Source: Xanthomonas floridensis (lineage in GTDB: Bacteria; Pseudomonadota; Gammaproteobacteria; Xanthomonadales; Xanthomonadaceae). From it: a DNA stretch of 64,000 nucleotides. Where the stretch lies: NCBI RefSeq assembly GCF_001642575.1, contig NZ_LXNG01000011.1, positions 1 to 64,000 on the forward strand. Reading direction: 5' to 3'. The translations under genes and the position numbers were made by a program. The notes under the pieces are model-generated. The model worked only from the letters and a program-made list of their open reading frames with translations, made no database searches and was not told where the DNA came from. Shown in pieces: positions 1-25,594 of this stretch. Each line of letters begins with the position of its first letter. Within the stretch, counting starts at the first letter, position 1.

Positions 1-2
1 TG

Positions 3-233
3 TGCAGCATGAGTCGGCGTGGCAACTGCCACGACAACGCACCCGTGGAGAGCTTCTTCGGCCTGCTCAAACGCGAGCGGATCAGGCGGCGGATCTACCC
101 GACCAGGGACGCCGCACGCGCCGAGGTGTTCGATTATATCGAGATGTTCTACAACCCAAAACGCCGCCACGGTTCAACTGGCGACCTGTCGCCTGTAGAG
201 TTCGAACGGCGCTACGCGCAACGAGGGTCTTGA
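3..233 (+). CDS. IS3-family transposase (OrfB), C-terminal part, cut by window edge
   Basis: This is the last 76 codons of an IS3-family transposase; the start lies outside the window. The peptide has the hallmark NCHDNAPVESFF segment, in which the Glu is the third residue of the DDE catalytic triad. It is followed by LKRE and the usual family ending with FYN.KR.H and SP.EFE. The enzyme catalyses copy-out-paste-in transposition through a circular intermediate. The TGA stop at 231-233 directly abuts the probable right terminal inverted repeat, as expected for an intact right end. It lies head-on to the Rhs remnant that it interrupts. Whether the element is complete cannot be judged from here. 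Confidence 0.9.
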   Translation, partial: CSMSRRGNCHDNAPVESFFGLLKRERIRRRIYPTRDAARAEVFDYIEMFYNPKRRHGSTGDLSPVEFERRYAQRGS

Positions 234-259
234 GTGTCTACGGAACCCTGGGCGTATCA
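234..259 (+). repeat. Right terminal inverted repeat of the IS3-family element
   Basis: The stretch starts immediately after the transposase stop and ends in TCA. Read inward from the other strand it begins TGATACGCCCAGGGTTCC, which has the 5'-TG start and length typical of IS3-family ends. The Rhs-derived sequence starts at about 260, so 259/260 is my inferred insertion junction. The left end and the target duplication are outside the window, so the boundary is inference. Confidence 0.65.
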
Positions 260-1126
260 GACATTGCCACGAGTACCACCCATACCTGCTTCAACCGTAT
301 CAGTCCTAATCCATTGATGGTCGATTGGATTACCTGCAATCCCAAATGCTGGTTGGCTACAAACAAAAACTTCAAGCCCAAGCGGATCAGTCCACATCAT
401 CGGATTCCCTCCGACATAGGCATAGGTACTGATGCCACCACCCAAGCCCAATGGATCGCTCTGCCCATACCGTCCGGTGCCAACGTCATAGTCACGGAAG
501 TAGTTCTGATTGAACCCGATCGCTGCATCAAACCGCTGCCCTGGAAAGCGCATATCGAACACCATCGTGGTGCCGTCTCCATCCGGATCCTGGTTGGGTG
601 CGGTATTGCCGAAGGCTTCGCCTTTCAGGCTCCAGTTCCACACAGCAACGTCGCGGGCGGCATCGACGACCACACGGGGGCTACCGAGGTGGTCAGGTTC
701 GATGTAGTGCAGTTGACCTCCGTTAGCCAACAGGCCCACCGGCAGGTCGTCCAGCTAGATCGCTTGTTGCTTGGGTGCGCCGTTGGTGTCGTAGTCGCCG
801 AGCCAATGGCTCGCCTCGTCGTAGAGCGTAAAGGTGTTGGTGGTGCCCAGGTAGCGACGTACCTGCTCGCCGCGGCCGCTGTAACGGTAGTTCATGACCG
901 CGGCACCTGCGCGCTTGACCTGGGTCATGCGGCCCGTGGTGTCGTACAGGTACTCACGTGCCTTGCCGCCGATGGTGAGGGTATTGCCCATCTTGTCGTA
1001 GGTGCGCACCACGCCTGCCACCGCACTCAGACGATGGCTGGTGGTTGGATATGTGTAGGTCTGCATGACGCCACCGACCTTGGCACTCAGGCGGTTGCCG
1101 GTGCCATCGTAGCTGTAGCCATCCAT
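257..1126 (-). pseudogene. Displaced Rhs core with truncated DHQW-type C-terminal tip (module 4)
   Basis: This is a fragment of the Rhs core, about 210 codons nearly identical to the end of the full-length Rhs protein, followed by a different C-terminal tip. It is broken twice. A Trp codon in the WLDDLPVG segment has become amber TAG at 755-757, which splits the frame into 755-1126 and 257-754. The tip (LEVFVCSQP, then DHQWIRTDT.EAGMGG) is cut off by the IS element, whose first three terminal bases supply the stop TGA at 257-259. From memory the DHQW/EAGMGG segment is common at the start of Rhs tips, but its activity is unknown to me. Any immunity gene would have lain beyond the IS. It is most likely a dead or donor cassette. 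Confidence 0.85.
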
Positions 1127-1183
1127 TCCAGTGGTGGTGCGTCGTTGGGGAGGAGTAAGCCGGCCGAGAGCGCAAAACGGTGT

Positions 1184-1225
1184 CACTTATTAAGTGAATC
1201 CGACCCCGTTTACTGGTGTACGAAA
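1184..1225. other. Junction element between Rhs modules, with a short palindrome
   Basis: Between module 4 and the lipoprotein gene lies a short non-coding junction. It contains the palindrome CACTTATTAAGTG at 1184-1196 and the string GACCCC shortly after, preceded by GCGCAAAAC at about 1170-1178. A related arrangement (GCGCAAAACAGCGTCA, then AGACCCC) occurs at about 2873-2913, beyond the next module. It resembles, from memory, sequence that often flanks REP-associated transposase genes in Xanthomonas. It may mark the recombination joints of the cassette array. Confidence 0.4.
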
Positions 1226-1753
1226 TTATATTTCCGTAGACCCAGAAATTTCACGAGATTCTTTGCAGTCTTCGGGCCATCCTAGTGGGCTCACCAGTCC
1301 AAAACGAAGGAAGTAATTAATTATAAACTTTTTGGACGGCTTTTTAATTTCAACAAAGCCACTTTCCAAAACACCAACGCAGCCTGTTTTGCCTAAAAGA
1401 TCAAATAGACCTTGCGAATAGAAGGCCTCGAATTTAACCGGACCAACGTGAGAGACAGCGCTAGCCGGCTGAATAAAAATCGAAGTCAGTTCTCTAGCAA
1501 CTGTATCACTATGCAGTGAAGGAGATCGACTTGTCTTTGAAACGATTAGTTGAATGCCATCGCCGTTAACCGCTTGATGGCAGGCGCTTTGCGCTTCTGC
1601 AATCTCGCTATGAATTTTGGAGTTAGGTTTACACCTCATTTCATCCAGGACTACACCAACTCTAATATTTGATTTTGTACTATTGCATCCACATAAGGAG
1701 ATCACGCCAATTACGGCAATTACGGCAAAAAAGGCCCTACTCATTACAGTCAT
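1226..1753 (-). CDS. Lipoprotein, candidate immunity protein for the zincin-like Rhs tip
   Basis: The predicted protein has 175 residues. It starts with a lipoprotein signal peptide: a short n-region, a hydrophobic run FFAVIAVIGVISL and the lipobox LCGC. A mature lipoprotein anchored at Cys about 22 residues in would face the periplasm. I chose ATG 1753 because GGGG lies a few bases upstream; ATG 1744 is the alternative. Either start overlaps the end of the upstream toxin module (stop at 1737), so translation is probably coupled. The gene is clearly AT-richer than the Rhs core, as is usual for exchangeable tip and immunity segments. I do not recognise the family. The immunity role is inferred from position and overlap only. 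Confidence 0.65.
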   Translation of the reverse strand: MTVMSRAFFAVIAVIGVISLCGCNSTKSNIRVGVVLDEMRCKPNSKIHSEIAEAQSACHQAVNGDGIQLIVSKTSRSPSLHSDTVARELTSIFIQPASAVSHVGPVKFEAFYSQGLFDLLGKTGCVGVLESGFVEIKKPSKKFIINYFLRFGLVSPLGWPEDCKESREISGSTEI

Positions 1754-2831
1754 AAGACCCCATTTCAATCTGGTCCTTGGCGGCGTCTGTACGCCTCCCT
1801 GCTTCTTCATAAATTTTTTCGTGATTGCGTGCACTATAAAATATCCCTTTAGTCAGATGAAGACCTTCATGAACAATAGTGTCATACAAATCGACGCGCT
1901 GAGCCGGAGAAAGGCTTTGCAAGTATCGATCATCCAGCGTTATCGTTCTTTTTAAGTAATTTGTATATCCCACCTCATCACCACCAAGATCTCTAACATT
2001 TAACCGACCAGGAAATCTTAAATCCAACTCTCTTTCCTTAGCCAAGGCAAATAAAAAATCAACGTCATGCTGGGTGAGGCCTAGAAGATCGATGAGATTC
2101 ATTGGATTGCTTGAAACATAGGTATATGTATTACCTCCGCCAGCCAATCCAATCGGATCACTCTGCCCATACCGACCAGTGGCCGCATCGTAGTCCCGGA
2201 AGTAGTTCTGATTGAACCCGCTGGCCGCATCAAACCGCTGTCCCGGGAAGCGCATGTCGAACACCATCGCGGTGCCATCGCCATCCGGATCCTGGTTGGG
2301 TGCGGTATTGCCGAAGGCTTCGCCTTTCAGGCTCCAGTTCCACACAGCAACGTCGCGGGCGGCATCGACGACCACACGGGGGCTACCGAGGTGGTCAGGT
2401 TCGATGTAGTGCAGTTGACCTCCGTTAGCCAACAGGCCCACCGGCAGGTCGTCCAGCCAGATCGCTTGCTGCTTGGGTGCGCCGTTGGTGTCGTAGTCGC
2501 CGAGCCAATGGCTCGCCTCGTCGTAGAGCGTAAAGGTGTTGGTGGTGCCCAGGTAGCGACGTACCTGCTCGCCGCGGCCGCTGTAACGGTAGTTCATGAC
2601 CGCGGCACCTGCGCGCTTGACCTGGGTCATGCGGCCCGTGGTGTCGTACAGGTACTCGCGTGCCTTGCCGCCGATGGTGAGGGTGTTGCCCAACTTGTCG
2701 TAGGTACGCGCCACGCCGGCAACAGCGCTCAAACGATGGTTGGTGGTTGGATATGTGTAGCTCTGCATGACGCCACCGACCTTGGCGCTCAGGCGATTGC
2801 CGGTGGCATCGTAGCTGTAGCCGTCGATCAC
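1737..2831 (-). CDS. Displaced Rhs core plus HExxH zincin-like toxin tip (module 3)
   Basis: Residues 1 to about 250 are a fragment of the Rhs core, starting at VIDGYSYDATG, running through the RHS-associated core motif RYGQSDPIGL and ending near LIDLLGL. The sequence is nearly identical to the full-length Rhs gene. The last 110 or so residues are unique and carry DTIVHEGLHLTKG, a clear HExxH zinc-peptidase motif, with a later acidic stretch (EKIYEEAGRRTD) that could provide the third ligand. A GTG at 2831 could start translation but no good ribosome binding site is visible. The module may therefore be a silent donor that replaces the tip of the main gene by recombination across the shared core, rather than an expressed gene. 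The overlapping lipoprotein gene downstream is the probable immunity partner. Confidence 0.75.
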   Translation of the reverse strand: MIDGYSYDATGNRLSAKVGGVMQSYTYPTTNHRLSAVAGVARTYDKLGNTLTIGGKAREYLYDTTGRMTQVKRAGAAVMNYRYSGRGEQVRRYLGTTNTFTLYDEASHWLGDYDTNGAPKQQAIWLDDLPVGLLANGGQLHYIEPDHLGSPRVVVDAARDVAVWNWSLKGEAFGNTAPNQDPDGDGTAMVFDMRFPGQRFDAASGFNQNYFRDYDAATGRYGQSDPIGLAGGGNTYTYVSSNPMNLIDLLGLTQHDVDFLFALAKERELDLRFPGRLNVRDLGGDEVGYTNYLKRTITLDDRYLQSLSPAQRVDLYDTIVHEGLHLTKGIFYSARNHEKIYEEAGRRTDAAKDQIEMGSYDCNE

Positions 2832-3144
2832 AGTGGATTGATACCGTCGTTTAGCTCGGCGATTACGCTAAGCGCGCAAAACAGCGTCATTCTTTTAGAT
2901 TAACCAGACCCCAATTATTGCAATAATTCTAAAAAATTCCGGGGATTTTGGGCATCTTGCGATATGGGAATCTTTTGAGCATTCGGTAAAGATTTTTTGA
3001 ACTCGCGAATAAATTATTTCGGAATTAATAAAAATAAATTTTTGACCGTACAATTTATCAATCCATACGCATATTTTGCAAATTCTCCGAATCAAAAACA
3101 GCAATAATTCATTACTGCAATCCTTCGAACCTCAGAGGGAAATG
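2832..3144. other. AT-rich spacer between Rhs modules
   Basis: About 310 bases separate the start of module 3 from the end of the membrane immunity gene. The part next to module 3 holds the junction string GCGCAAAACAGCGTCA. The rest is strongly AT-rich. An open frame of 69 codons (2895-3104, minus strand) exists, but its composition (Ile, Lys and Phe-rich) and lack of a ribosome binding site make it unconvincing. I see no terminator or RNA gene here. Confidence 0.4.
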
Positions 3145-3516
3145 TTATCGAAAAAGCGTAGCTACGATAACCACCAAACCTAGAAAAGAAACAATCGCCC
3201 CCGATGCCTTCTTCTGTGCTGGCGCTATGATCGACGCAATCACACCTGCTACGATAATAGCCAGCACCAGCACCGTAACTATTAAGGCTTTTTCTGCCAT
3301 CGGAAACCAGCTTGCCGAACAGCTCTGAATGGTTAATGCATAGTCTTTTTGGGATAATTCGGTTACCCCTTCAATCAACCTGTAATGACGGGGACAGAAG
3401 CGCAGTATAAAATATCGAAAATGGTATATTAATAGCAATGTAGCTACAAAGCAGATAGCAACCGATGGAATTAGAGCAATCCATCGTAGCCGTGTCGTCA
3501 TAGTCAGCTTATTCAT
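3145..3516 (-). CDS. Three-helix membrane protein, candidate immunity protein
   Basis: The predicted protein has 123 residues and starts MNKLTMTTRLRW. Three hydrophobic segments are visible: WIALIPSVAICFVATLLLIY near the start, ALIVTVLVLAIIVAGVIASI in the second half and AIVSFLGLVVIVATLF at the end. The region between the first two, with FCPRHYRLIEG, would be the soluble loop. ATG 3516 was chosen over the longer open frame because it overlaps the TGA of the toxin module (3513-3515) as ATGA, a classic coupling arrangement. A membrane immunity protein fits a toxin active at or outside the inner membrane. I do not recognise the family. Confidence 0.65.
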   Translation of the reverse strand: MNKLTMTTRLRWIALIPSVAICFVATLLLIYHFRYFILRFCPRHYRLIEGVTELSQKDYALTIQSCSASWFPMAEKALIVTVLVLAIIVAGVIASIIAPAQKKASGAIVSFLGLVVIVATLFR

Positions 3517-4813
3517 CGTCCGCCAGCCGGAAAATTTCGCATGACTCCTGGGGAGAGATAATTCTTTGTATGATAGTAGGGCACTTTCCCCCAAATACCT
3601 GTAATGCCGTTATTGCTGTACCACATGTATTGCGTCGCACCCGAAGTGGGTGTTTTGTATTTTCTGGCAAATTGCTCTGCAATTGAATTTTCTCCTTGCC
3701 CAGAGCGACAACCCTTAAACTCTACTGGTTCTCCCTGCGTCCAGCCCGCGCCTCTGAGCACCTGAGCTATTCCGTCTACATCGAGCTTGTTCGTCTGCCC
3801 AGAACTCTGATCAAGAATTCTGTTTGGTCCCATATGCCCATAGACTGACCATACCCCTGGGGTCTCAGTATCGACCGATGCCCCCTGATAGAAAACATTG
3901 GCACCTGGTGTAAATAAGACAAGCTTCTCCAGTCCGTACGGATCAACATAGCCGACCGGATTCCCCTCAACATAGGCATATGTGCTAATTCCTCCAACCA
4001 GCCCAATCAGATCACTCTGCCCATACCGACCAGTAGCAGAATCATAGTCCCGAAAGTAATTCTGATTGAACCCGCTCGCTACATCAAACCGCTGGCCTGG
4101 GAATCGCATGTCAAAAATCATCGCGGTGCCGTCTCCATCCGGATCCTGGTTGGGTGCAGTGTTGCCGAAGGCTTCGCCTTTCAGGCTCCAGTTCCACACG
4201 GCAACGTCGCGGGCGGCATCGACGACCACACGGGGGCTACCGAGGTGGTCGGGTTCGATGTAATGCAGTTGAGCGCCGTTGGCCAGCAGGCCAACCGGCA
4301 GGTCGTCCAGCCAGATCGCTTGTTGCTTGGGTGCGCCGTTGGTGTCGTAGTCGCCCAGCCAGTGGCCCGCCTCGTCGTAAAGCGTGTAGGTATTGGTGGT
4401 GCCCAGATAACGGCGTACCTGCTCGCCGCGGCCGTTGTAACGGTAGTTCATGACCGCGGCACCTACGCGCTTGACCTGGGTCATGCGCCCGGTGGTGTCA
4501 TACAGGTACTCGCGTGCCTTGCCCCGATGGTGAGAGTGTTGCCCGTCTTGTCGTAGGTGCGCGCCACGCCGGCAACCGCGCTCAAACGATGGTTGGTGGA
4601 TGGATATGTGTAGGTCTGCATGGCGCCGCCAACCTTGGCGCTCAGGCGATTGCCGGTGGCATCGTAGCTGTAGCCGTCGATCACGGTATTGGCGGCGCCG
4701 TCCTTCAGCGCTGTGAGCCGACCGAGGGCGTCGTAGTCCAGTCGCAACTCCGGTGTCGGGTTGCCGGCAGGCATGAGCGCAGTGAGGTCCCGATCCGATC
4801 GAAGCCACTTCAT
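3513..4813 (-). pseudogene. Displaced Rhs core with candidate caspase-fold toxin tip, frameshifted (module 2)
   Basis: This is a core fragment homologous to the last third of the full-length Rhs (from DLTALMPAGNPTPEL onward), with a unique tip of about 135 residues. A one-base deletion near 4521-4526 (GCCCCGATGG against GCCGCCGATGG in the intact copy) puts the 5' part (4527-4813) and the rest (3513-4520) in different frames. The tip has VYGHMGP about 50 residues before VEFKGCRSGQGENSIAEQFA. A His in a GH motif followed by a Cys in a C.SG motif resembles clostripain/C80 or CHAT-like cysteine peptidase folds found in other Rhs toxins; this is my inference. The stop overlaps the membrane immunity gene by ATGA. 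It is probably a donor cassette. Confidence 0.75.
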
Positions 4814-4849
4814 CCTCCTAAGGCCCCCCCATAGTTCTGCACAGATTAT

Positions 4850-5227
4850 CTACTCAGGAAAAGGCCACCTCTTATGCCAAGGTAATTCGCACCCTAACCA
4901 TTCCGTCCCCTCGGAAAACATTTTTTTTATCTTTTCATACCGGCCAAGCATCTTTGTTTGCAAAACTCGATCTGAAACTAAAAATTCAATTGAGTTCCTT
5001 ATAATTATCTTTTCTTCTGAATCTTCTCTTATTTCAATAATGCCATCATATTCATCGTCAAACAAAGTCCATATCCAGTATCCGATCGAATTAACCGCAC
5101 TATCCTCAGATTTTTTTGGCCAATTACCCTCGAATTCACCTGAAGACAGTCGGTTTTCATCAAGCTTACGCAGCAACTCAACTCCGATATTTCTAGCAGC
5201 ATAGTCGATCACTGAGCACCTCGACAT
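4850..5227 (-). CDS. Candidate immunity protein for the full-length Rhs tip
   Basis: The predicted protein has 125 residues and is acidic, with no signal peptide or membrane segment, so it should be cytoplasmic. It includes IGYWIWTLFDDEYDG and ends in a Trp-rich tail (WLGCELPWHKRWPFPE). Its start overlaps the last 19 bases of the Rhs gene, which suggests coupled translation and fits the rhs tip / immunity gene order. Composition is AT-rich compared with the Rhs core, as in the other tip-immunity segments of this island. I do not recognise a named family. The immunity role rests on position. Confidence 0.65.
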   Translation of the reverse strand: MSRCSVIDYAARNIGVELLRKLDENRLSSGEFEGNWPKKSEDSAVNSIGYWIWTLFDDEYDGIIEIREDSEEKIIIRNSIEFLVSDRVLQTKMLGRYEKIKKMFSEGTEWLGCELPWHKRWPFPE

Positions 5228-8200
5228 TTTATAAAAGCATTCAGCGCTTCAACGTGCTCCGTTATTGCACCAATCCCTGCCCCGATAATGCCCGCCCTCT
5301 TAACCACTGTTCCTATTCCGAGCCTACCAATAGCTCTCCCAACCCCATTTCCCAGGTAACGTCTTGAGTAGCTCGTGTAACGCCCGCTGGGACCTCCACC
5401 CGCCACCCCACCACGCGGCTTAATTGCTGATTTATTAACCACTTGCGCCGATCCACCAAAGATTGCAGAACCAGCGCCAAATCCCACAATCGAATCAACT
5501 GATTCTTCCATAGAGTAGGTACTTAGAGCAGCATCAAGACAGTCTTCTTTTGGCTTGTCTTCACAAAGACCAGAAGGATCTAAGTGGCTAACCGGGCTTC
5601 CTTCAACATAAACGTATGTACCAATTCCTGCTCTTAAGCCAATCGGATCACTCTGCCCATACCGACCAGTAGCAGAATCATAGTCCCGAAAGTAATTCTG
5701 ATTGAACCCGCTCGCTACATCAAACCGCTGTCCCGGGAAGCGCATGTCGAACACCATCGTGGTGCCGTCTCCATCCGGATCCTGGTTGGGTGCGGTATTG
5801 CCGAAGGCTTCGCCTTTCAGGCTCCAGTTCCACACAGCAACGTCGCGGGTGGCATCGACGACCACACGTGGACTGCCGAGGTGGTCGGGTTCGATATAGT
5901 GCAGTTGACCACCGTTGGCCAACAGGCCAACCGGCAGGTCGTCCAGCCAGATCGCTTGTTGCTTGGGTGCGCCGTTGGTGTCGTAGTCGCCCAGCCAGTG
6001 GCCCGCCTCGTCATACAGCGTGTAGGTGTTGGTAGTGCCCAGGTAGCGGCGTACCTGCTCGCCACGGCCGTTGTAGCGGTAGTTCATCACAGCAACACCT
6101 GCCCGCTTGACCAGAGTCATACGGCCCGTGGTGTCGTGTAGGTACTCACGTGCCTTGCCGCCGATGGTGAGGGTGTTGCCCAACTTGTCGTAGGTACGCG
6201 CCACGCCGGCAACCGCGCTCAAACGATGGTTAGTGGTTGGATAGGTGTAGGTCTGCATGGCGCCGCCAACCTTGGCACTCAGGCGATTGCCGGTGGCATC
6301 GTAGCTGTAGCCGTCGATCACGGTATTGGCGGCGCCGTCTTTCAATGCTGTGAGCCGACCGAGCGCGTCGTAGTCCAGTCGTAGCTCTGGTGTCGGATTG
6401 CCAGCCGGGGTCAGAGCGGTGAGGTCGCCAACGGCATCGAAGCCGAAGCCGATTTCCAAGCCGCCTGCGCGGGTGTCTTGGATGCTGCGTGGGCGGTAAT
6501 CAAGATCGTACATGCGCGCCAGCTTGCGGCCGTTACCGTAGGTCCAGCCGGAGGATGGGCCGAACGGATAGTAGGTCGCTCCGCTCAGCAGACGCTGGCG
6601 GCTGCCGCCTTGTGCCGTCACACCAACCTCGGTCGTCTGGCCTTGCGCGTTGCGGACATAATCGACCGTAGTGCCGTCTGGATAGAACATCGACCGCAGA
6701 CGGCCGCCAGGGGTGTAGTCGTAGCGCACCACCAACACCTTGCCGTTGACCGTCTGCACCTTGCGCACCACCTCGCCGAAGCGGTTATAGCAGTATTGGG
6801 TGGTACCGCTGCCATCCTGGAGCTTGGCCAGGCGCCCGACGGTGAAGGTCTCACCGCTGGCGCACACGCTCTGCGTGACGTCATAGGTATAGCTGATATT
6901 GAAGGCGGCGGTTGGGTAACTGATGCTCAAGACGCGGTTGAGTGCATCGTATGCGTAGGTGGAGGTGATGCCGCGTGCATCGGTTTGCGTGGCGCGGTTG
7001 CCCGCGCTGTCGTAGGTATAGCTAGTGACGCCGGTGTCCGGGCTGGTCAGTTTCAGGGTATCGCCAAAGCCGTTGTACGTGTAACGCGTATCAAGACGTT
7101 TGGGGTCCTTGACCTGCAGCGGGCGATCCTGCGTGTCGTAACCCACGTTGGTTTCGGCCTTGATGCCGTCGACATCCTGCAAGGTGCGCGCAAGCCGACC
7201 GAGCGGATCGTGCTCTTGCAGGGTGTTACGGCCAAATGCGTCGGTGACCAAGCGCAGGTTGCCGTTTGCATCGTAGGCGTAGTCGGTGGGATTTGCGGCC
7301 GCGTCCGCCTGCGTTTTCAGTTGGCTCAATTGGTTGTAAATACGGCTCAAGCTGCGCTTGAGCACACCTTGCACGTCCTTGGTCTGCTCCTCCAGACGAT
7401 TGCCAGCGTTATCGAGCACGTAATGGAGGGTGTTGCCCAGCGTATCGGTGATATCGGTGAGGCGTTGGGCCTGGTCGTAGACAAACGTCGCGTAACTGCC
7501 ATCGGACTGGGTGATGCGTTTGACCAAGCCGGTGGGCCAATACTCGAACGTGGTGACGCGATTCTGCGCGGACGTCGCGCCATGCACCGTGGTCGATGCC
7601 AACCAACCACGCGGGTGGTAGCTGTAATCGGTCAGCACCCCGTTTTCGTCAACGGCAGACAGAACGCGGCCTGCTGCGTCATAACCCAGATTCTCGCGGA
7701 CCTGGCCGCGGGCGTTGATGGTCTGCTTGAGGTCGCCCTTGCGATACGGGCACGGTCCGGTGCCGGTATCGCATCCTGCGGCATCGATGGGGTAATAGTT
7801 GTAGGTGGTACGGTCGTCGATATCCGTGCGCGGGCCATCGATGGACTTCAGGAGGCCAATCACGGGACAGTCGCTACCGGCAGCCACATCGGCTGCCTCG
7901 CAGTAGTTCAAACTGAGAACTCTGGTCTGACCACTTGCGACGTCGGTAGTGGTTACTTGCTGCGGCTGCAGTCGCGCATTTCGAACGTAGCTGATTTTCC
8001 TGTCACTGGATTGAACTGATATCAGCCGGTTACCGTCGACCGTGGTACGCGTAGTTGTTGTTCGTTGAGTGGGCAAACCGGCCGCCTCGGTGACCGTATG
8101 CACATTGACTGGCACGCCAGCATCCGCAAGTTCGCCATAGGCGTGTTGCGTGACAACCCCAGTACGATCGATAGATACGCTCAGGCGCCGACGGAAGTCG

Positions 8201-9750
8201 ATACTGGCATCCAGATAGTCGCTGCTGAGGGTGCCCGCGCTGTCGGTGACGTCATCTATTTTTCTAGGACCTGCGGAACGCTGGCTCAGCGTATATGTCG
8301 TCTGTTTCCCCAACGCGTCGGTTACAACGGTGGCGCCATCGGTGTAATCAAGCGTCACGCCGTCTGCGCCGCCTTGATGCTGGCTTGACACAACACGCCC
8401 AGTCGCGTTGTAGGCGAATGTGCTGTAGCGCATTCCATCCTCCGCGACCACACCGGTCAGGAAGCGGTAAAAATCCTCGTCTTCATACAGATACGACCTG
8501 ACCCGGCCGTCCGCATAGATCGCGCTCTCCAGCACCGCGCTGTCCGGGAAAGTTTCAGAGTAAGCGTAGGTGGCCAACGCAACTCCGTCCAGCGCAATTC
8601 GAATAAGCTGGGCATAACGGGAACCATCAGCGTAGTGGAAAACCAACTTGCGGCCGGTCGAGTGGGTGATCGACTCCAACCTCGAGGACCGATCGTACGC
8701 ATATCGAAGATAAGTACCGTCGTCCTTCGACACCAAGCTCAACGCGCCTGTAGCATCAAATTCCGAAACCGTATCCGATCTAAAAAGTCGCCATCCATTA
8801 GCTATTTTTTCAAGCCGATCCCCAGAACCATCAGAAGCAATAAAAGAATTTCCGACCAATTTGAAATTACGTTGAAGCCCGTTTCCTTCAGCAAGTATTG
8901 CGTGAGAGCCACTTGCAGAAACGCTGATTTCATGTGAGTTGAACCAGCCCGCCCCAAGGTTGGATCGCCGTCCGACCTGCGAGGACCGAAACGTTCGAAC
9001 GAGACGTATCCATCCAAGATCGAAATCCTGCTCGGGCTGTGATTTTTCCCCGGTTTTTACATCGCACGGATTACCAACCGAACACGTATCCTCTAAAGAA
9101 GGCCCGGTCAAGTAAGCAAATATTTCCAGATTTACACAAGCCTGATAATCATCGTTCCAGGTCGTATACAAAGGACAGAATATCCTGCGCTGGCGAGTAC
9201 CGAACCCGGTGTGCTCTACGGGTAGGCACGTTCCATCGTAATAAATTACGTTCGATATAACATCAAAGCTTTTTGAATCAAAACGACCCTCGAATTCCGC
9301 CGAATATGGCGTCCATTCGGTTGCTGGCTTCAGCGAAACCTTGCCACATTCGTTAAATTCAGTGTAGAAGGACTCAATACGTGCAACCATCTCGACCTCA
9401 GTTGCGTAAGTGCTACCTAGTGCAGAGTAAGTCCATTCGGGATCGGAAGGTTGATCGTTACCAAGCCAGTATGTGAGCGTAACCGTCTGGTCTTCGTTTG
9501 TTTTTGTCTCTTTTATGTGCGTAGCTAAGGCATACGCATACTGTGCATCGCTGGGACCGGCGATCTGCGCCATGGCCTCAATTGCACGATGTTGATTGTC
9601 AAAAACGCCAACAGTTGTTGTCGGAATTTCTGGGTGCTTGGCAGAAACCGTCCACTCCGGCTTGACCTCCTGCGCGGAGACTCCGCAGACAACGGTCAGC
9701 AACAGCGCATAAACGTAATGACGTAGCCACAAGGGCCTAAGAACTTCCAT
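5209..9750 (-). CDS. Full-length Rhs-repeat polymorphic toxin with Sec signal peptide
   Basis: The protein has 1513 residues. Residues 1-26 form a signal peptide (hydrophobic run YALLLTVVCGVSA, cleavage near SAQ). About 200 residues of unassigned N-terminal region follow, then a DUF6531-like segment (about 223-295, GNPCDVKTGEKSQ and the following FDLGW). Next come many RHS/YD repeats (Y.YD..GN..) forming the encapsulating shell, and the RHS-associated core motif GRYGQSDPIGL near residue 1395. The last 115 or so residues are the variable tip. It is Gly-rich with alternating hydrophobic stretches (GRLGIGTVV and IIGAGIGAI) and a few Cys; I cannot assign an activity. There is no PAAR or VgrG part, so Sec export rather than direct T6SS loading is likely. 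An AGGA sits just before ATG 9750. Confidence 0.9.
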   Translation of the reverse strand: MEVLRPLWLRHYVYALLLTVVCGVSAQEVKPEWTVSAKHPEIPTTTVGVFDNQHRAIEAMAQIAGPSDAQYAYALATHIKETKTNEDQTVTLTYWLGNDQPSDPEWTYSALGSTYATEVEMVARIESFYTEFNECGKVSLKPATEWTPYSAEFEGRFDSKSFDVISNVIYYDGTCLPVEHTGFGTRQRRIFCPLYTTWNDDYQACVNLEIFAYLTGPSLEDTCSVGNPCDVKTGEKSQPEQDFDLGWIRLVRTFRSSQVGRRSNLGAGWFNSHEISVSASGSHAILAEGNGLQRNFKLVGNSFIASDGSGDRLEKIANGWRLFRSDTVSEFDATGALSLVSKDDGTYLRYAYDRSSRLESITHSTGRKLVFHYADGSRYAQLIRIALDGVALATYAYSETFPDSAVLESAIYADGRVRSYLYEDEDFYRFLTGVVAEDGMRYSTFAYNATGRVVSSQHQGGADGVTLDYTDGATVVTDALGKQTTYTLSQRSAGPRKIDDVTDSAGTLSSDYLDASIDFRRRLSVSIDRTGVVTQHAYGELADAGVPVNVHTVTEAAGLPTQRTTTTRTTVDGNRLISVQSSDRKISYVRNARLQPQQVTTTDVASGQTRVLSLNYCEAADVAAGSDCPVIGLLKSIDGPRTDIDDRTTYNYYPIDAAGCDTGTGPCPYRKGDLKQTINARGQVRENLGYDAAGRVLSAVDENGVLTDYSYHPRGWLASTTVHGATSAQNRVTTFEYWPTGLVKRITQSDGSYATFVYDQAQRLTDITDTLGNTLHYVLDNAGNRLEEQTKDVQGVLKRSLSRIYNQLSQLKTQADAAANPTDYAYDANGNLRLVTDAFGRNTLQEHDPLGRLARTLQDVDGIKAETNVGYDTQDRPLQVKDPKRLDTRYTYNGFGDTLKLTSPDTGVTSYTYDSAGNRATQTDARGITSTYAYDALNRVLSISYPTAAFNISYTYDVTQSVCASGETFTVGRLAKLQDGSGTTQYCYNRFGEVVRKVQTVNGKVLVVRYDYTPGGRLRSMFYPDGTTVDYVRNAQGQTTEVGVTAQGGSRQRLLSGATYYPFGPSSGWTYGNGRKLARMYDLDYRPRSIQDTRAGGLEIGFGFDAVGDLTALTPAGNPTPELRLDYDALGRLTALKDGAANTVIDGYSYDATGNRLSAKVGGAMQTYTYPTTNHRLSAVAGVARTYDKLGNTLTIGGKAREYLHDTTGRMTLVKRAGVAVMNYRYNGRGEQVRRYLGTTNTYTLYDEAGHWLGDYDTNGAPKQQAIWLDDLPVGLLANGGQLHYIEPDHLGSPRVVVDATRDVAVWNWSLKGEAFGNTAPNQDPDGDGTTMVFDMRFPGQRFDVASGFNQNYFRDYDSATGRYGQSDPIGLRAGIGTYVYVEGSPVSHLDPSGLCEDKPKEDCLDAALSTYSMEESVDSIVGFGAGSAIFGGSAQVVNKSAIKPRGGVAGGGPSGRYTSYSRRYLGNGVGRAIGRLGIGTVVKRAGIIGAGIGAITEHVEALNAFIKCRGAQ
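5639..6430 (-). repeat. Rhs core segment present in four near-identical copies
   Basis: This 3' core segment of the full-length gene recurs at about 4008-4790 (longest copy), 2147-2825 and 450-1126. All copies share the DNA encoding VIDGYSYD to GRYGQSDPIGL, and each then diverges into a different tip. High identity over 0.7-0.8 kb gives room for homologous recombination that would swap the tip and immunity gene of the expressed protein. Identity was judged by eye. Confidence 0.85.
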
Positions 9751-19968: not shown

Positions 19969-20786
19969 GCCGCGTGCCGCTGACGCCGCAGGACACCGCG
20001 ATCCTGGTGCCGGCGTTGAACGAATCGCTGCGTATCCGTGAAGTGGTCACCGATGCACTGCAGTACTGCCCGCAGGTGATCGTGATCGACGACGGCTCCG
20101 ACGATGGCACCGCCGATTGCATCGCCGACCTGCCGGTGACGGTGATCCGCCACCCGCAGCGCATGGGCAAGGGCGCCGCCCTGCGCAGCGGCTTTGCCAA
20201 AGCACAGCAGTTGGGCATGCGCGCGGTGATGACCATGGACGGCGATGGCCAGCACAAGGCCGCCGATTTTCCGCGCCTGCTGGCCGCGGCCAACCGCCAC
20301 CCCGGCAGCGTGGTGATCGGCGCACGCATGCGCAAGCGCGCCACCCAACCCACCATTCGCCGGATTGGCAACGATTTCGGTGATTGGGGCATCGCCTGGG
20401 GCTGCGGTTTCCAGCTGGTGGACAGCCAGAGCGGCCAACGGCTGTATCCGGCGGCGGTGTTCACCCTGCCGAATGTGCCCGGCGAAGGCTTCGTGTTCGA
20501 AGCGCAGCTGCTGATTTCGGCCGCACGCCAGGCCGGCGCGCGGGTGGTGGCGGTGCCGATCGAGACCCGCTACGCCGGCAGCGCGCCAGGCACCTTTCGC
20601 AAGAGCCATTTCCGGCTGGTGCGCGACCTGTGGAACATCACCTCGCATGTGGTCAAGCAGGTCTGGGCGTATGGCCATGTCTGGCGCGAATACCGCCGCG
20701 TGCGCGCCAACCCGGTGATCGTTGACGATGTCGATGGCGAATTTGCTACTGTGCCCGCGGTCACCAAGAGCAACCACTCCTCATGA
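19965..20786 (+). CDS. Family 2 glycosyltransferase of the pigment operon
   Basis: The protein has 273 residues. It opens with ILVPALNES, has VIVIDDGSDDGTAD and the metal-binding MTMDGDGQH, the standard GT-A fold signatures (DxD-type DGDGQ) of family 2 transferases acting on nucleotide sugars. The C terminus is basic and amphipathic rather than clearly transmembrane, so it may be peripheral at the inner membrane. GTG 19965 was chosen because it overlaps the TGA of the previous gene and gives MSRVPLTPQDTAI, the first family-like residues. Its TGA overlaps the ATG of the flavoprotein. A role in adding a sugar or polar head group to the polyene is inferred from context. Confidence 0.88.
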   Translation: MSRVPLTPQDTAILVPALNESLRIREVVTDALQYCPQVIVIDDGSDDGTADCIADLPVTVIRHPQRMGKGAALRSGFAKAQQLGMRAVMTMDGDGQHKAADFPRLLAAANRHPGSVVIGARMRKRATQPTIRRIGNDFGDWGIAWGCGFQLVDSQSGQRLYPAAVFTLPNVPGEGFVFEAQLLISAARQAGARVVAVPIETRYAGSAPGTFRKSHFRLVRDLWNITSHVVKQVWAYGHVWREYRRVRANPVIVDDVDGEFATVPAVTKSNHSS

Positions 20787-22405
20787 ATGCAGCGCGCGCC
20801 GATGTCGTCATTACCGGTGGTGGATTGGCCGGCCTGAGCCTGGCCTTGCAACTGAAGCAGCGCGACCCTGCGCTGGCCATCACAGTGCTGGAACGGCGCG
20901 CCCACCCGGTACGCGAGGCCGCCTTCAAGGTGGGCGAATCCACGGTGGAGATCGGCGCGCATTATTTCGCCCAGGTGCTGGGCCTGCGCGAGCATCTGGA
21001 GACCGAACAGATCCGCAAGTTCGGGTTCCGTTTCTTCTTCTCCGACAAGCGCGAAGACATCGACCGTTGCACCGAGCTGGGCGTGAGCAAGATCCTGCCG
21101 ACGCCGTCGTGGCAGATCGACCGCGGCCGCTTCGAAAACTTCCTTGGCGAGCGCGCCCGCGCGCAGGGCATCACCTTTATCGATGGCTGCAGCGTCAAGG
21201 GCGTGGACTTGGCCGAGGACGACGCCGACCATGCGGTGCGTTACGAATGCGCCGGCACCGCGGGCACGCTGCAGGCGCGCTGGGTGGTGGACGCCAGCGG
21301 CCGCGCCGGCCTGCTCAAGCGCAAGCTCGGCCTGGCGCAGGACAACGCACATCACGCCAACGCGGTGTGGTGGCGCGTGGAAGGCCTGATCGACCCCAAC
21401 GGCTGGTCGCAGGACAGCAGCTGGCTGCAACGTTGCACCCCGCCGGACCGCTGGCGCTCGACCAACCACATGTGCGGGCCAGGTTACTGGTTCTGGCTGA
21501 TTCCGCTGTCCTCGGGCGCGCACTCGCTGGGCATCGTCTGCGATGCCGCGATGCATCCGCTGGAGAGCATGAACACCCATGAAAAAGCCATGGACTGGCT
21601 GCGCCTGCATCAACCGCAAGTGGCCGCCACGCTCGACAGCGCCGACTACCGGCTGCAGGACTTCCTGTTCCTGCGCAAGTTCTCTTACGGCTGCACACAG
21701 GTGTTCTCCACGCAGCGCTGGGCGCTCACCGGCGAGGCCGGCCTGTTCCTGGATCCGTTCTATTCGCCCGGCAGCGACTTCATCGCGATTTCCAACACCT
21801 ATATCTGCGAGCTGATCGGCCGCGACCGCGCCGGCAAATCGCTCAGCCCGTATGTGGAGCTCTACCAGCAGCTGTATTTTTCGTTCTACGAAAACACCCT
21901 GACCCTGTACCAGGATCAATACGCCTTGTTCGGCGACGAGCAGGTCATGCCGGTCAAGGTGATCTGGGATTACACCTATTACTGGTCGCTGCTGGCGCCG
22001 CTGTTCTGCTCCGGGCGCATTGCCGACCTGAGCCTGCTCTCGCGCATGAAGGCAGATTTCTTCTACGCACGCGACATGAATCTGGCCATGCAGCGCGTAT
22101 TGCACGACTGGGGCGTGCGCAACACCGAACAGGGCATCACCGGCGGCGATGGACGCCTGCTGGACCAGTATTTGATCGGCTGGTTCAACGAACTCAATGG
22201 CGCCTTGAACGACACCCTCGACGATGACGCCTTTGCCGCACGCATCCACCGCAACGTGGCGCAGATGGCGGTACTGGCCCGCGAGATCCTGCAGCAGGCA
22301 CGCCAGCGCCACCCGGAGCTGCCCGACCACGGCCTGGACGCGCTGACGGCCGATGCCAGCGGAGAGGCGATCCTGACCGCCACGTGGTACGCCGACGCGG
22401 CCTGA
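20783..22405 (+). CDS. FAD-dependent tryptophan-halogenase-like oxidoreductase
   Basis: The protein has 540 residues. The N-terminal dinucleotide fold is VVITGGGLAGLSLA with the acidic end of the second strand at VLERR. FKVGESTVE, VVDASGRAGLL and GEAGLFLDPFYSPG follow, as in the flavin-dependent halogenase/hydroxylase superfamily. Xanthomonadins carry bromine, so a halogenation role is possible, but I do not see the WxWxIP motif of classical tryptophan halogenases; the corresponding segment is YWFWLIPLSSG. It is the last gene of the plus-strand operon and overlaps the glycosyltransferase by ATGA. The AT-rich defence-like module begins just beyond its stop. Confidence 0.85.
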   Translation: MNAARADVVITGGGLAGLSLALQLKQRDPALAITVLERRAHPVREAAFKVGESTVEIGAHYFAQVLGLREHLETEQIRKFGFRFFFSDKREDIDRCTELGVSKILPTPSWQIDRGRFENFLGERARAQGITFIDGCSVKGVDLAEDDADHAVRYECAGTAGTLQARWVVDASGRAGLLKRKLGLAQDNAHHANAVWWRVEGLIDPNGWSQDSSWLQRCTPPDRWRSTNHMCGPGYWFWLIPLSSGAHSLGIVCDAAMHPLESMNTHEKAMDWLRLHQPQVAATLDSADYRLQDFLFLRKFSYGCTQVFSTQRWALTGEAGLFLDPFYSPGSDFIAISNTYICELIGRDRAGKSLSPYVELYQQLYFSFYENTLTLYQDQYALFGDEQVMPVKVIWDYTYYWSLLAPLFCSGRIADLSLLSRMKADFFYARDMNLAMQRVLHDWGVRNTEQGITGGDGRLLDQYLIGWFNELNGALNDTLDDDAFAARIHRNVAQMAVLAREILQQARQRHPELPDHGLDALTADASGEAILTATWYADAA

Positions 22406-22423
22406 GCCAGGACTTTAGTCAGA

Positions 22424-23056
22424 TCACGCCATTCGCTGGTATAGAAGTTCCAAATCACTTTTGAGCTGCCAATACGAAGAGAGTTCGCAGATGGGGCCCT
22501 CCGCGTCTATTGCGGAGACTAGGCGTGCCCGCATTTGCCCAAAGAGTTTTTTAAACTTCTTGAGTTTCGTGCCTTGCAATTCACTACACTCACAAAGAGC
22601 GCTCAATAGTAAATTTTTACTGTCACGAATACGCTCCAAATCTCGCAGGGGTGGAACACACCCTATTGGATCGCAGCCAGCTTTCCCAGCAACCCTTCTG
22701 ATTGCTTGGCTATCAACTAGAAGCCAAGTCTCTAACATCTTTACGGGAACAACCGGAATCACGCTAGCTGGATCGTAAATTCCAGCACAAGCATCATGGA
22801 TTTCTCGTCGCCTAGCTGCCAACCCCTGAGCATCTGCATCACGATGAACGAAAACCACGTCCGCAGAAGGGTACAAATCACGGACCACTTCCAATTTTTC
22901 TCTGACCGAGTGCCCGACATGAAACGGCAATCTGGACGGATCAAAAGAAGTTCCACTTGCCTCTACAAATCCAACTTTGATTAGCAGCGTTTCAATGTGA
23001 TCTACCAAATTTAAATCAGACACCCCTTCCCCAGTAAGAATAAAACTGATCTTCAT
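22424..23056 (-). CDS. TOPRIM-like (DUF4276-type) putative nuclease of a two-gene defence-like module
   Basis: The protein has 210 residues. The N terminus FILTGEGVSDLNLVDHIE places an invariant-type Glu in an EG..D motif. About 65 residues later comes VVFVHRDADAQGLAARR, a D.D motif. This E...DxD layout is that of compact TOPRIM nuclease domains found in DUF4276 and DUF4435 proteins. A later PVKMLETWLL segment is also typical of that group. The ATG overlaps the TGA of the ATPase gene (ATGA), so the two are one translationally coupled unit. ATPase plus TOPRIM pairs are known anti-phage systems (PARIS, OLD/Gabija-like logic); assignment to any named system is inference. It is AT-richer than the flanking pigment genes. 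Confidence 0.75.
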   Translation of the reverse strand: MKISFILTGEGVSDLNLVDHIETLLIKVGFVEASGTSFDPSRLPFHVGHSVREKLEVVRDLYPSADVVFVHRDADAQGLAARRREIHDACAGIYDPASVIPVVPVKMLETWLLVDSQAIRRVAGKAGCDPIGCVPPLRDLERIRDSKNLLLSALCECSELQGTKLKKFKKLFGQMRARLVSAIDAEGPICELSSYWQLKSDLELLYQRMA

Positions 23057-24459
23057 GAAAGGGCTTCCGTTCGAACCACCTTAAGATCGAGGGATATCTG
23101 GCGGTCCGGAGGCAATTCAAGATATGAAATGATCGAAGCTCGGTCTACGCCATTACCCTCAATGCCTGAGAACCGCCAGCTTTCTCGCAATGACTTGCAC
23201 CTAATAGTAGTTGCAGGCATCCCATTAGGCCCTTTTACTTTAACTACGTCTGCAAAAATTAGGTCATCCGGCTCCTCCAATGAAACAAGAACCGGCGAAT
23301 GAGTTGCAACTATAATTTGCCTCATTGAATTTGATTCTGACACTTCCTCATGAGGATCTACAGACAATTCTTTCAGCAATGCTAACATTGCTCCGACTCG
23401 TGCCGGATGAATCCCATTTTCTGGCTCTTCAAAGCATAAAACACCGTTAAAGTCAGAGTCTTCAGCAATAATTGAAAGAGCGAGAAATCTCAAGGTTCCG
23501 TCGGACAAAGCACGTGCTGGTAAAAACGCACCGCTTCGCTCTTTAACCTCAACGGTGAGAAGTTGGCGAACTTGATCCACATCAACTCTTATGTCGGAGG
23601 TAGGGACTATTTCTGACAAACGGCTAGCGACGCGCGTATAGACGGAAGCATCTTTCCTATGCAATTTGTAAAGCGAGGCTCCCAGCCTTCCGCCGCCAGA
23701 ACTCACCATTCCCTCTTCGTGTATTTTATTCGAACGACGCATCGCACTTGGCTCCAGTGAAAGGAAGCGCCAAGATTGCATCTCACGCCTGGCGGCCAAG
23801 ATAGTAGGCCAGACTCCACTATTCGTATTAGAAACCACGGTTTTAGGCGCGTTTTTTGCAGGAAATTTTTGAGGTTGCCCGCTACTACCACCATCCTGGT
23901 GAAGATGTATTTCGACAATCCCATCCTGATCCTGATGAGTAGAAATGAAACCAGCACCTTTTCTTTTATTTATTACGATATTTTCTCTAAACTTGGTCAC
24001 ACTCATGGGAAATCCAAGGCGATCAACCGCTTCGCCTTTGTTGATATGAATCAGCGTCTCTTTAACTAAATGCAACCCAAGAGAGCCCGACTCTCGCTCC
24101 TCATCGTCTCGCGCAAGCTCAACTTCGTAGCGGAGAAAAGTCGAAGTTGCTTTCGCGCGTCGTCCAAAGTCATCAACCACATCGACTGGAACTATCATTT
24201 CTACAGCAAGCGATAAGCGTTCCGATCTAAAATCACCATTCGTCCAAAAAATATCGAGCGGATCTGTAGAATCAGACTCTCTGACTTCTAGAGCCGCCTC
24301 AACAATTGATTTATCTGCAAGCAAAGAAAGGAATTTTATCGAGTCGAATATGTTCGACTTACCAACTCCATTCAGCCCCGCAATGCAATTAAAAGGCCCG
24401 AAATTTACAGAGAATCCCAGGAGATTTTTGAAACAATTCACTTCAAGCCGCGTCAACAT
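23053..24459 (-). CDS. SMC/ABC-type AAA ATPase of a two-gene defence-like module
   Basis: The protein has 468 residues. It starts MLTRLEVNCFKNLLGF, the usual N terminus of RecF/OLD-like ATPases. Walker A GLNGVGKSN is at about 29-37. A signature-like RALSDGTLRFLALS lies near residue 340, Walker B with catalytic Glu is GVLCFEEPENGIHP, and an H-loop-like VATHSPVLV follows. The middle is variable, with a basic stretch. The gene is AT-richer than neighbours. It sits between the convergent pigment operons, downstream of the ketoreductase, and is coupled by ATGA to the TOPRIM-like gene. Such ATPases usually sense phage components and gate a nuclease partner; that role is inferred here. Confidence 0.85.
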   Translation of the reverse strand: MLTRLEVNCFKNLLGFSVNFGPFNCIAGLNGVGKSNIFDSIKFLSLLADKSIVEAALEVRESDSTDPLDIFWTNGDFRSERLSLAVEMIVPVDVVDDFGRRAKATSTFLRYEVELARDDEERESGSLGLHLVKETLIHINKGEAVDRLGFPMSVTKFRENIVINKRKGAGFISTHQDQDGIVEIHLHQDGGSSGQPQKFPAKNAPKTVVSNTNSGVWPTILAARREMQSWRFLSLEPSAMRRSNKIHEEGMVSSGGGRLGASLYKLHRKDASVYTRVASRLSEIVPTSDIRVDVDQVRQLLTVEVKERSGAFLPARALSDGTLRFLALSIIAEDSDFNGVLCFEEPENGIHPARVGAMLALLKELSVDPHEEVSESNSMRQIIVATHSPVLVSLEEPDDLIFADVVKVKGPNGMPATTIRCKSLRESWRFSGIEGNGVDRASIISYLELPPDRQISLDLKVVRTEALS

Positions 24460-24479
24460 TTAACACCGCCTCTAAATTT

Positions 24480-24485
24480 ATTATA
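24480..24485 (-). promoter_or_regulatory. Candidate -10 box of the ATPase-TOPRIM module
   Basis: A perfect TATAAT on the minus strand lies about 20 bases before ATG 24459, followed by AGAGG as a plausible ribosome binding site. There is no convincing -35 box; the region where it should be is the end of the ketoreductase gene. If real, the module has its own promoter, as expected for inserted cargo. Confidence 0.4.
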
Positions 24486-24501
24486 GGCATATAGCACATA
24501 T

Positions 24502-25239
24502 TCAGCCCATCCCACCATTGATGCCGATGACCTGGCCATTGATGTAACCGGCGGACTCCGAACACAGAAACGCCACCAGCGCAGCGACTTCCTCGGGCTT
24601 GCCCACGCGTCCGGCCGGCACCAGTTGCTTGATGACGTCCGGGGCGAAGCTCTCGCCGACCATCTCGCCTTCGATCACACCCGGCGCCACCACGTTGACT
24701 GCGATACCGCGGCTGGCCATCTCGCGTGATAGCGACTTGCTGGCACCGTGCAGCGCCGCCTTGGCTGCGGCGTAATTGGTCTGCCCGCGGTTGCCCAGCA
24801 CTGCCGCCACCGACGACACGCTCACGATGCGGCCCCAGCGCATACGCGCCATCGGCAGCAACAAGGGCTGGGTGACATTGAAAAACCCATGCAGCGACAC
24901 ATCGATGACACGATGCCACTGGGCAGCGTTCATGCCCGCCATCGGCGCGTCGTCGTGGATGCCGGCGTTATTGACCACGATCTGGATCGGGCCGCTGTCC
25001 AGCAGGGCCTCCAGCGCAGCCGTTGCTGCCTGCGCGTCGGCCACATCGAAGGCTACCGCTTCTGCGCTGCCACCGTCGGCGACAATCGCAGCCACCACGT
25101 CTTCGGCACGCGCCAGATTGCGGTTGGCATGCACAATCACGTGCCGGCCTTGCGCGGCCAGCTGACGGCAGATGGCGCCGCCAAGATCGCCGCTGCCGCC
25201 GGTCACCAGCGCACGACGCTGTGGAAGGGATGTGCTCAT
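24502..25239 (-). CDS. 3-ketoacyl-ACP reductase (FabG-like SDR) of xanthomonadin synthesis
   Basis: The protein has 245 residues and is a short-chain dehydrogenase. The NADP-binding turn is VTGGSGDLGG, NNAG is near residue 90, the catalytic Ser is in SVSSVAA, and the YxxxK motif is YAAAK. The end YINGQVIGINGG is FabG-like. In aryl-polyene pathways this enzyme reduces the keto group formed by each condensation. ATG 25239 was chosen because the SDR fold starts directly after it; the open frame extends much further upstream without similarity. It is the last pigment gene on the minus strand before the inserted ATPase module. Confidence 0.92.
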   Translation of the reverse strand: MSTSLPQRRALVTGGSGDLGGAICRQLAAQGRHVIVHANRNLARAEDVVAAIVADGGSAEAVAFDVADAQAATAALEALLDSGPIQIVVNNAGIHDDAPMAGMNAAQWHRVIDVSLHGFFNVTQPLLLPMARMRWGRIVSVSSVAAVLGNRGQTNYAAAKAALHGASKSLSREMASRGIAVNVVAPGVIEGEMVGESFAPDVIKQLVPAGRVGKPEEVAALVAFLCSESAGYINGQVIGINGGMG

Positions 25240-25285
25240 GGATGCCTCGATGAAAGCCGCAAACGGCAGCGGCGAGCCCGTCATC

Positions 25286-25594
25286 CTAGCGATTCGCCGC
25301 TGCCGCCGGAACAGCCTTGCCACATCCCGGCGAGCGCTGCGCGTCTGACGAGGCGGCCACTCCTGCAACAGCGTCCTGCTGCGACGGGCAGGCCCTGCCC
25401 AGGTCGTTCCGGTCGCGCGTGCCGTTCCAGTTGAGGATGCCGGAGGCCTGACCATCGAGCGCAACCTCTGCGTTGCGCACCAGCATCCGCGTGACGCCAC
25501 GGGGCAGCACACCAGGTCCATGTGGACGTGCGTGCAGAACCCATTGCGCGTGGATGCCGACTGCGCGCCAGCGTCCGTGCGCAGCACGGCTCAC
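25286..25594 (-). CDS. Possible small protein in the pigment operon, uncertain
   Basis: Between the ketoreductase start and the dehydratase stop lie about 370 bases. An ATG at 25594, 16 bases after the dehydratase stop, opens a frame of 102 codons on the operon strand. The product has a basic N terminus and a segment with LNWNGTRDRNDLG. Codon use is less GC-biased at third positions than the neighbours, and no domain is recognised. It may be a real small pathway protein, or only the untranslated leader of the ketoreductase. I lean slightly towards non-coding. Confidence 0.3.
   Translation of the reverse strand: MSRAAHGRWRAVGIHAQWVLHARPHGPGVLPRGVTRMLVRNAEVALDGQASGILNWNGTRDRNDLGRACPSQQDAVAGVAASSDAQRSPGCGKAVPAAAANR

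Follow-up and report, generated by a model that had tools for sequence, protein, structure and literature searches.

Which function can be ascribed to two AT-richer genes that sit between the ends of two convergent operons in Xanthomonas floridensis, and how did they come to lie there? The window, i.e. the whole stretch of DNA analysed (64,000 nucleotides of contig NZ_LXNG01000011.1), carries at this site a gene for an ATPase and a gene for a small partner protein. The original prediction described them as an inserted pair of an ATPase and a Toprim-like protein which could not be assigned with confidence to a named system, and proposed that a pigment locus may serve as a landing site for defence genes. 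The observation was confirmed and the interpretation is partly supported.

Organization of the locus

The following features are relevant to the site.

20783..22405, + strand: flavin-dependent halogenase-family gene, the last of the + strand operon (Trp_halogenase, E=4.2e-16)
22406..22423, no strand assigned: 18-bp spacer from the halogenase stop to the partner stop (sequence)
22424..23056, − strand: HEC-01B-type DUF4276-like partner, putative Toprim nuclease, 210 aa (ORF; PADLOC profile; sub-threshold DUF4276 match)
23053..23056, − strand: ATGA overlap of the ATPase stop and the partner start (sequence)
23053..24459, − strand: HEC-01A-type OLD/AriA-like ABC ATPase, 468 aa (ORF; PADLOC and Pfam profiles; intact motifs)
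24460..24501, − strand: 42-bp spacer from the FabG-like stop to the ATPase start, with TATAAT at 24485-24480 (sequence)
24502..25587, − strand: FabG-type ketoreductase gene, the last of the − strand operon (NCBIfam FabG, 336.8 bits, cut-off 273, residues 123-360)

Both ORFs of the predicted AT-richer, ATGA-coupled unit are present, and the overlap of the two genes suggests that their translation is coupled. The unit fills the interval between the convergent stops of the halogenase (22405, +) and the FabG-like gene (24502, −), with gaps of just 18 and 42 bp, which is exactly the position that had been described. Its GC content is 0.44-0.48, in comparison with 0.59-0.76 outside (500-bp windows, 15-32 kb). 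No terminal repeats were found at the unit borders in the region 22300-24700.

The profile scan of the flanking proteins detected the Trp_halogenase family, a FabG-type KR, an MMPL transporter and a family 2 glycosyltransferase. The FabG-type protein also matched adh_short (E=1.9e-48), and its listed ORF starts upstream of the matched domain. This gene set is consistent with a xanthomonadin cluster and suggests that the two convergent operons are the xanthomonadin operons. In such aryl-polyene clusters, genes for dolichyl-phosphate mannose synthase and halogenase are found repeatedly next to the key genes (PMC3691225).

The TATAAT motif noted originally is present on the − strand of the 42-bp spacer, which also contains a GAGG sequence that could serve as a ribosome site. 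The motif was rejected as the promoter of the pair: a promoter scan of the region gave one sigma-70-like site, located elsewhere (mean of 2.4 in shuffled sequences), and none at the TATAAT. The spacer upstream of the ATPase gene differs in the other two Xanthomonas copies (G008 and G019, see below).

At the beginning of the stretch (window 1-9750), DNA mostly of lower GC contains a 1513-aa RHS/YD-repeat ORF (5209-9750, − strand), after which lie further ORFs that combine displaced RHS 3' tips with tails that differ (3513-4808, 1737-2831 and two ORFs within 257-1186). This − strand region looks like an Rhs locus with orphan tips.

The ATPase

The ATPase matched the PADLOC profile HEC-01A PDLC04184 over residues 1-426 of 468 (E=2.2e-94) and the Pfam families AAA_21 (84.8 bits, cut-off 27) and AAA_15 (58.9 bits). 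The Walker A (GLNGVGKSN) and Walker B (FEEPENG) motifs were correctly recognized in the original prediction. Together with the LSDGT signature and H387 of the H-loop, they are near-invariant in an alignment of 14 ATPases, the last row of which lacks the N-terminus. AriA was the best match of the single ATPase sequence in the PDB (E=0.0027). The 14-row profile matched OLD (2.1e-13), AriA (1.2e-9) and the retron Eco8 OLD protein (1.5e-9), but also SMC with the same value of 1.5e-9, and it matches the N-termini of both SMC and RecF. These last matches would suit a role of the pair in the maintenance of DNA or chromosomes or in regulation, as opposed to phage defence, as would an archaeal ATPase of the OLD class, Cran1, which is reported to act in the cell cycle (PMC12796447). 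The nearest profiles, however, are those of defence candidates, and the distribution of the pair, which bears on the same alternative, is described below.

The partner and the Toprim question

The partner matched the PADLOC profile HEC-01B PDLC04210 over residues 51-175 of 210 (E=3.5e-16). Its score with the Pfam family DUF4276 (PF14103) was 17.1 bits, i.e. below the gathering cut-off of 30.2, and at E≤1 the DUF4276 profile matched 12 of the 13 aligned partners (best value 5.1e-8). The window protein belongs to the low-scoring HEC-01B partners, as do those of Sphingopyxis (6.9e-18) and of the genome G725 (1.5e-13); the values for the other partners were 4.9e-27 to 3.4e-83 (six proteins), 2.5e-61 (a phage record) and 4.4e-9 (locus L062). 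With both genes matched, the unit is, as assigned by PADLOC profiles alone, a HEC-01-type cassette and thus a member of a catalogued candidate family, so that the earlier statement that no named system could be identified with confidence does not hold.

The residues considered comprise E10, D14, D73, D75, E109, W111, D115 and K147 (numbering of the window protein). In the alignment of 13 partners, the window protein included, D73, E109, W111, D115 and K147 are each found in all rows, E10 in 12 and D14 in 10. The predicted E...DxD pattern is present in the window protein (E10, D73, D75), but its second aspartate, D75, is D in only 4 of the 13 rows. In the Class 2 OLD Toprim domain, E400, D455 and D457 are assigned to metal A and E404, T506 and E508 to metal B, in addition to K562 (PMC6755086). 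Since the residue order and the E+4 spacing of the partner agree with this arrangement, we infer a Toprim-like site for two metals in which the DxD is a variant one. The residues E10, D14, D73, E109 and K147 probably mirror the two-metal site of OLD, and the partner is likely to be a Toprim-like nuclease.

The same cassette could nevertheless contain a non-Toprim partner, DUF4276 being then another Rossmann-like effector or a toxin which is neutralised by the ATPase in a toxin-antitoxin-like manner. No Toprim profile in Pfam matched the partner, and comparison with PDB sequences gave no credible match, the best ones being designed proteins. Alignment with the OLD Toprim domain by hhalign was weak (probability 1.8%, E 0.027), and the AlphaFold model built from two sequences was poor (pLDDT 42, pTM 0.34), which leaves the partner with no confident fold. 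The variability of the second DxD aspartate points in the same direction. The tie between AriB of the PARIS system and the OLD Toprim also started from a weak HHpred match (E 0.02; PMC9122126), with which our hhalign value, being one-against-one, is not comparable. What argues against a non-Toprim partner is the conservation given above (five residues in 13/13, E10 in 12/13) in the order and with the E+4 spacing of OLD (PMC6755086), as well as the succession of strands and helices in the weak model, which is compatible with Toprim. The toxin-antitoxin version is further weakened by PARIS, the analogue, which was shown not to be a toxin-antitoxin system (PMC9122126). We therefore consider a non-Toprim partner unlikely. 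Concerning the predicted ATPase and Toprim-like pair, the pairing is supported, and the Toprim identity, which has no firm profile or fold match, is likely.

Relatives of the pair in other genomes

The comparison covered 13 ATPase relatives in 11 loci, which are chosen matches and not a census; the loci come from a Sphingopyxis MAG, from replicons of Shinella, Nonomuraea and Kovacikia, from an unverified faecal phage record and from six other Proteobacteria. A partner ORF (about 214-231 aa) lies directly downstream in 12 of the 13, only the relative in L061 being without one, and all 10 partners scanned from these 12 matched HEC-01B. Searching from the side of the partner, 23 DUF4276 loci were found in 16 of 143 class genomes, with a same-strand ATPase frame directly upstream, abutting or overlapping, at 22 of them; the exception (L097) is close to a contig start. 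One of these loci (L111) lies within L062, which is counted among the 13 relatives, and another (L102) in the window's own genome. Within this sample, the frequencies of 12/13 and 22/23 make DUF4276 a near-obligate partner of these ATPases, and the 22 loci downstream of an ABC-type ATPase would allow the domain to be annotated as an effector coupled to an ATPase. The two genes have thus stayed together across distantly related bacteria.

Close relatives are rare in the genome samples. At E≤1e-40, the ATPase protein was matched in 2 of 297 family genomes, and the profile PDLC04184 in four of the 369 genomes sampled from the class and four of the 398 from the phylum, the window's genome (G000) being included in each of these counts. 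Few copies of the pair occur in the plasmid, phage and viral collections. Among plasmids, 34 records matched the ATPase, six of them with at least 80% cover, and one matched the partner (tblastn); the partner ORF was present in all three of the 34 records that were examined. Three phage records matched, and the one examined (the unverified record) has a pair. The scans of viral contigs yielded three loci, none with a HEC-01 pair according to their listed ORFs. These scans depend on conserved peptide words and so provide weak evidence of absence.

The expected association with defence genes elsewhere was found in part. In the Sphingopyxis MAG (L002), type I restriction genes lie approximately 4.8 kb from the related pair, and L062:7620-13862 contains three HEC-01-type pairs in tandem near a Fic gene, with one ATPase ORF shortened near the contig end. 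Several other relatives, among the neighbours scanned, stand alone outside visible defence islands (e.g. L063, and L065 beside a TPR gene). In L063 (genome G851) the pair converges on the GAPDH gene, with guaA further on, on the other side. In G725 a related pair adjoins a TPR gene. Among the 25 genomes of the G725 genus, five others have the full-length TPR gene, and the pair is absent from the adjacent 1.5 kb in all five. Here, in a different genus, the pair is again inserted on its own.

The window's genome contains a second HEC-01 pair, which belongs to another subfamily (L112:635-2403, contig C6 of G000). It matched HEC-01A PDLC04180 (E=1.8e-145) and HEC-01B PDLC04193 (E=8.5e-63). At E≤1e-30, nine of the 35 Xanthomonas genomes have a match to the ATPase subfamily of this pair, and the match is strong (about 1e-144) in three.

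The pigment gap across Xanthomonas

The halogenase gene was matched in all 35 Xanthomonas species genomes, whereas the partner, which was searched in all of them, was matched in two; the ATPase search listed 18 genus genomes. The pair is intact only in the window's genome (1/35), and most Xanthomonas pigment loci lack it. X. axonopodis DSM 3585 (G008, record L001) carries both genes at the same site with the same flanks in a degraded form: the ATPase gene lies in two pieces at two contig ends, with residues 138-264 unobserved, and a frameshift interrupts the partner near residue 169. An assembly error is a possible source of this damage. In G019 a remnant of the ATPase gene, 63 coding bp from its 5' end, adjoins FabG; the DNA that follows on the opposite side of the remnant is unrelated. 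G000 and G008 share flanks and junctions, and G019 has the same right edge. G012 and G022, in which the contigs end before FabG, were left unscored. The gaps of the other 30 genomes contained no trace of the pair in blastn and tblastn searches, apart from one 24-aa match at E 0.06. This comparison with empty sites bears out the view of the pair as inserted and accessory.

In the genomes without the pair, the gap is 110 to 2594 bp long and its contents include REP-like repeats. A hairpin with a T-run follows the halogenase gene in 15 of the 35 genomes; it was not found in G000 or G008, where the pair replaces the usual gap. Other cargo comprises a Tannase-family gene (scanned in G033, a similar ORF being read in G024) and an IS110 transposase gene (G020). 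Two types of small gap ORF were also observed, a conserved type 1 with the motif AKDSGWND, which occupies the whole gap, in 6 of 35 genomes (153 aa in L030:1018-1476, − strand) and type 2 of 111 aa with GDGLYVDGR in 4 of 35 (motif scan); their scanned copies had no Pfam or PADLOC match at E≤0.001.

One ORF each of the IS110, tannase-family and two small types was scanned, and none of the four gave a PADLOC match at E≤0.001. HEC-01 is therefore the sole defence-type cargo seen in the slot among the gap ORFs scanned. As the other scanned contents are not defence genes, the gap appears to be permissive rather than a defence hotspot. With the pair or its traces in 3 of 35 genomes, the idea of the pigment locus as a defence-gene landing site was not upheld, except for this single type of cassette.

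The pair is accessory, present in a few Xanthomonas lineages and apparently decayed in two of them. This patchiness (partner in 2/35) and the decay are unlike housekeeping genes and speak against the maintenance or regulatory role considered above, although in some genomes the pair stands alone beside housekeeping-type genes. We regard such a role as quite improbable.

History of the pair

The three carriers fall into separate supported clades of the halogenase tree, which also hold empty-site genomes (six rows of the tree have only 416-514 bases). At fourfold sites, the pairs of G000 and G008 differ at 34/63 and 58/88 positions in the two ATPase parts and at 34/48 in the partner, versus 31/132 in the halogenase, which is identical at 269/300, and 44/133 in FabG. 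GC3 is about 0.4 in the pair and 0.8 in the flanks, which may explain part of the excess divergence. Between the Xanthomonas copies, ATPase identity is 97.1 and 89.7% in the two parts, compared with 73.5 and 71.5% for the next relatives. The ATPase is better conserved than the partner, which has 74.5% identity between G000 and G008. The separate carrier clades, together with a fourfold-site divergence that is greater in the pair than in its flanks, make allele exchange or reacquisition at one slot likely. A single origin in the genus, followed by the exchange of divergent alleles or by reacquisition and by repeated loss, is the likely history.

A single early insertion in Xanthomonas with purely vertical inheritance and many losses would require no allele exchange. 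It would agree with the common flanks and junctions of G000 and G008, the same right edge in G019 and the closeness of the Xanthomonas ATPases to each other relative to the other relatives found. The fourfold differences, even if GC3 accounts for some of them, and the position of the carriers in three supported clades with empties argue against it, so that a vertical-only history is possible but doubtful. The cassette would reach the gap on its own, carrying no genes for mobility; recombination in the conserved genes on either side is the probable route.

Proposed function

With a probability of about 0.68, we interpret the unit as an accessory HEC-01-type defence cassette in which the ATPase acts as a sensor and the partner is a putative nuclease that is released. 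The roles of sensor/keeper and released nuclease are deduced from PARIS and OLD. The ATPase would multimerise and keep the partner inactive until it senses a phage product or event, and would then release or activate the partner. The latter would be a two-metal Toprim-like nuclease (E10, D14, D73/D75, E109, K147) cutting nucleic acid, either DNA, as OLD and GajA do, or tRNA, as AriB does, and the infected cell would be stopped. Expression may come partly from read-through from the FabG operon, which lies 42 bp upstream in the same direction.

More tentatively, DUF4276/HEC-01B might represent a further class of OLD-type Toprim effectors encoded by separate genes, beside AriB, and HEC-01 a triggered nuclease system similar to PARIS but having a sensor and a target of its own. 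At the same time, the site where the pigment operons converge would be a recurrent slot, in which recombination between conserved flanks swaps divergent alleles and the effector (74.5%) changes faster than the ATPase (89.7 and 97.1%). We see this combined proposal as a possibility with the odds against it. If it were true, a DUF4276 nuclease class would join the ATPase-Toprim defence group, and the locus would illustrate the movement of such pairs without mobility genes. The locus offers a compact, naturally isolated HEC-01 pair that can be compared with relatives whose site is empty and with a degraded copy and a remnant in the same position, and it names candidate active-site residues of the HEC-01 pair.

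Comparison with known systems

The window ATPase is similar to MAD3 of the MADS system (E=4.3e-41); with 141.5 bits versus the equivalog cut-off of 420, membership in MADS was rejected. The OLD nucleases and GajA of Gabija share the OLD-type ATPase with the window pair, and the partner residues parallel the two-metal site of Class 2 OLD. In contrast to the two separate genes of the window, however, OLD and GajA combine ATPase and Toprim in one polypeptide. Gabija was rejected because there are two genes, the flanks are halogenase and FabG, and there is no GajB-like helicase.

PARIS (AriA and AriB) likewise consists of two genes, for an ABC ATPase and a small Toprim-like effector. Its ATPase is defined by AAA_15 or AAA_21 matches with thresholds of 32 and 27 bits (PMC9122126), and the window ATPase reaches 58.9 and 84.8 bits, respectively. 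The partner did not match DUF4435 (PF14491) at E≤1, and its eight PADLOC matches at E≤1 were all HEC-01B, with no AriB profile among them. PARIS membership was rejected, since the partner is DUF4276-like and not DUF4435. In PARIS, the AriA hexamer sequesters AriB, which is a tRNase (PMC12409363).

HEC denotes Hma-embedded candidates (PMC10855318), several of which, including HEC-06, have antiviral activity (PMC12988326). HEC-05 has been named as BrxU and HEC-06 as GmrSD-like (PMC11411939), and HEC-01 was detected as a system in one genome study (PMC12724379). The parts of the literature covered by our search, to which the HEC source preprint does not belong, contained no functional test of HEC-01, and a search on the word DUF4276 found no paper. 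As in HEC-01, the two profile matches in the window occur in the same gene order in adjacent genes of one operon (ATGA). The name HEC-01 comes from embedding in Hma, whereas the window pair stands alone among pigment genes. What is new here is this unusual place of HEC-01, the pigment locus, while the family itself has already been catalogued, and the pair is therefore a useful further example of it rather than a new kind of system.
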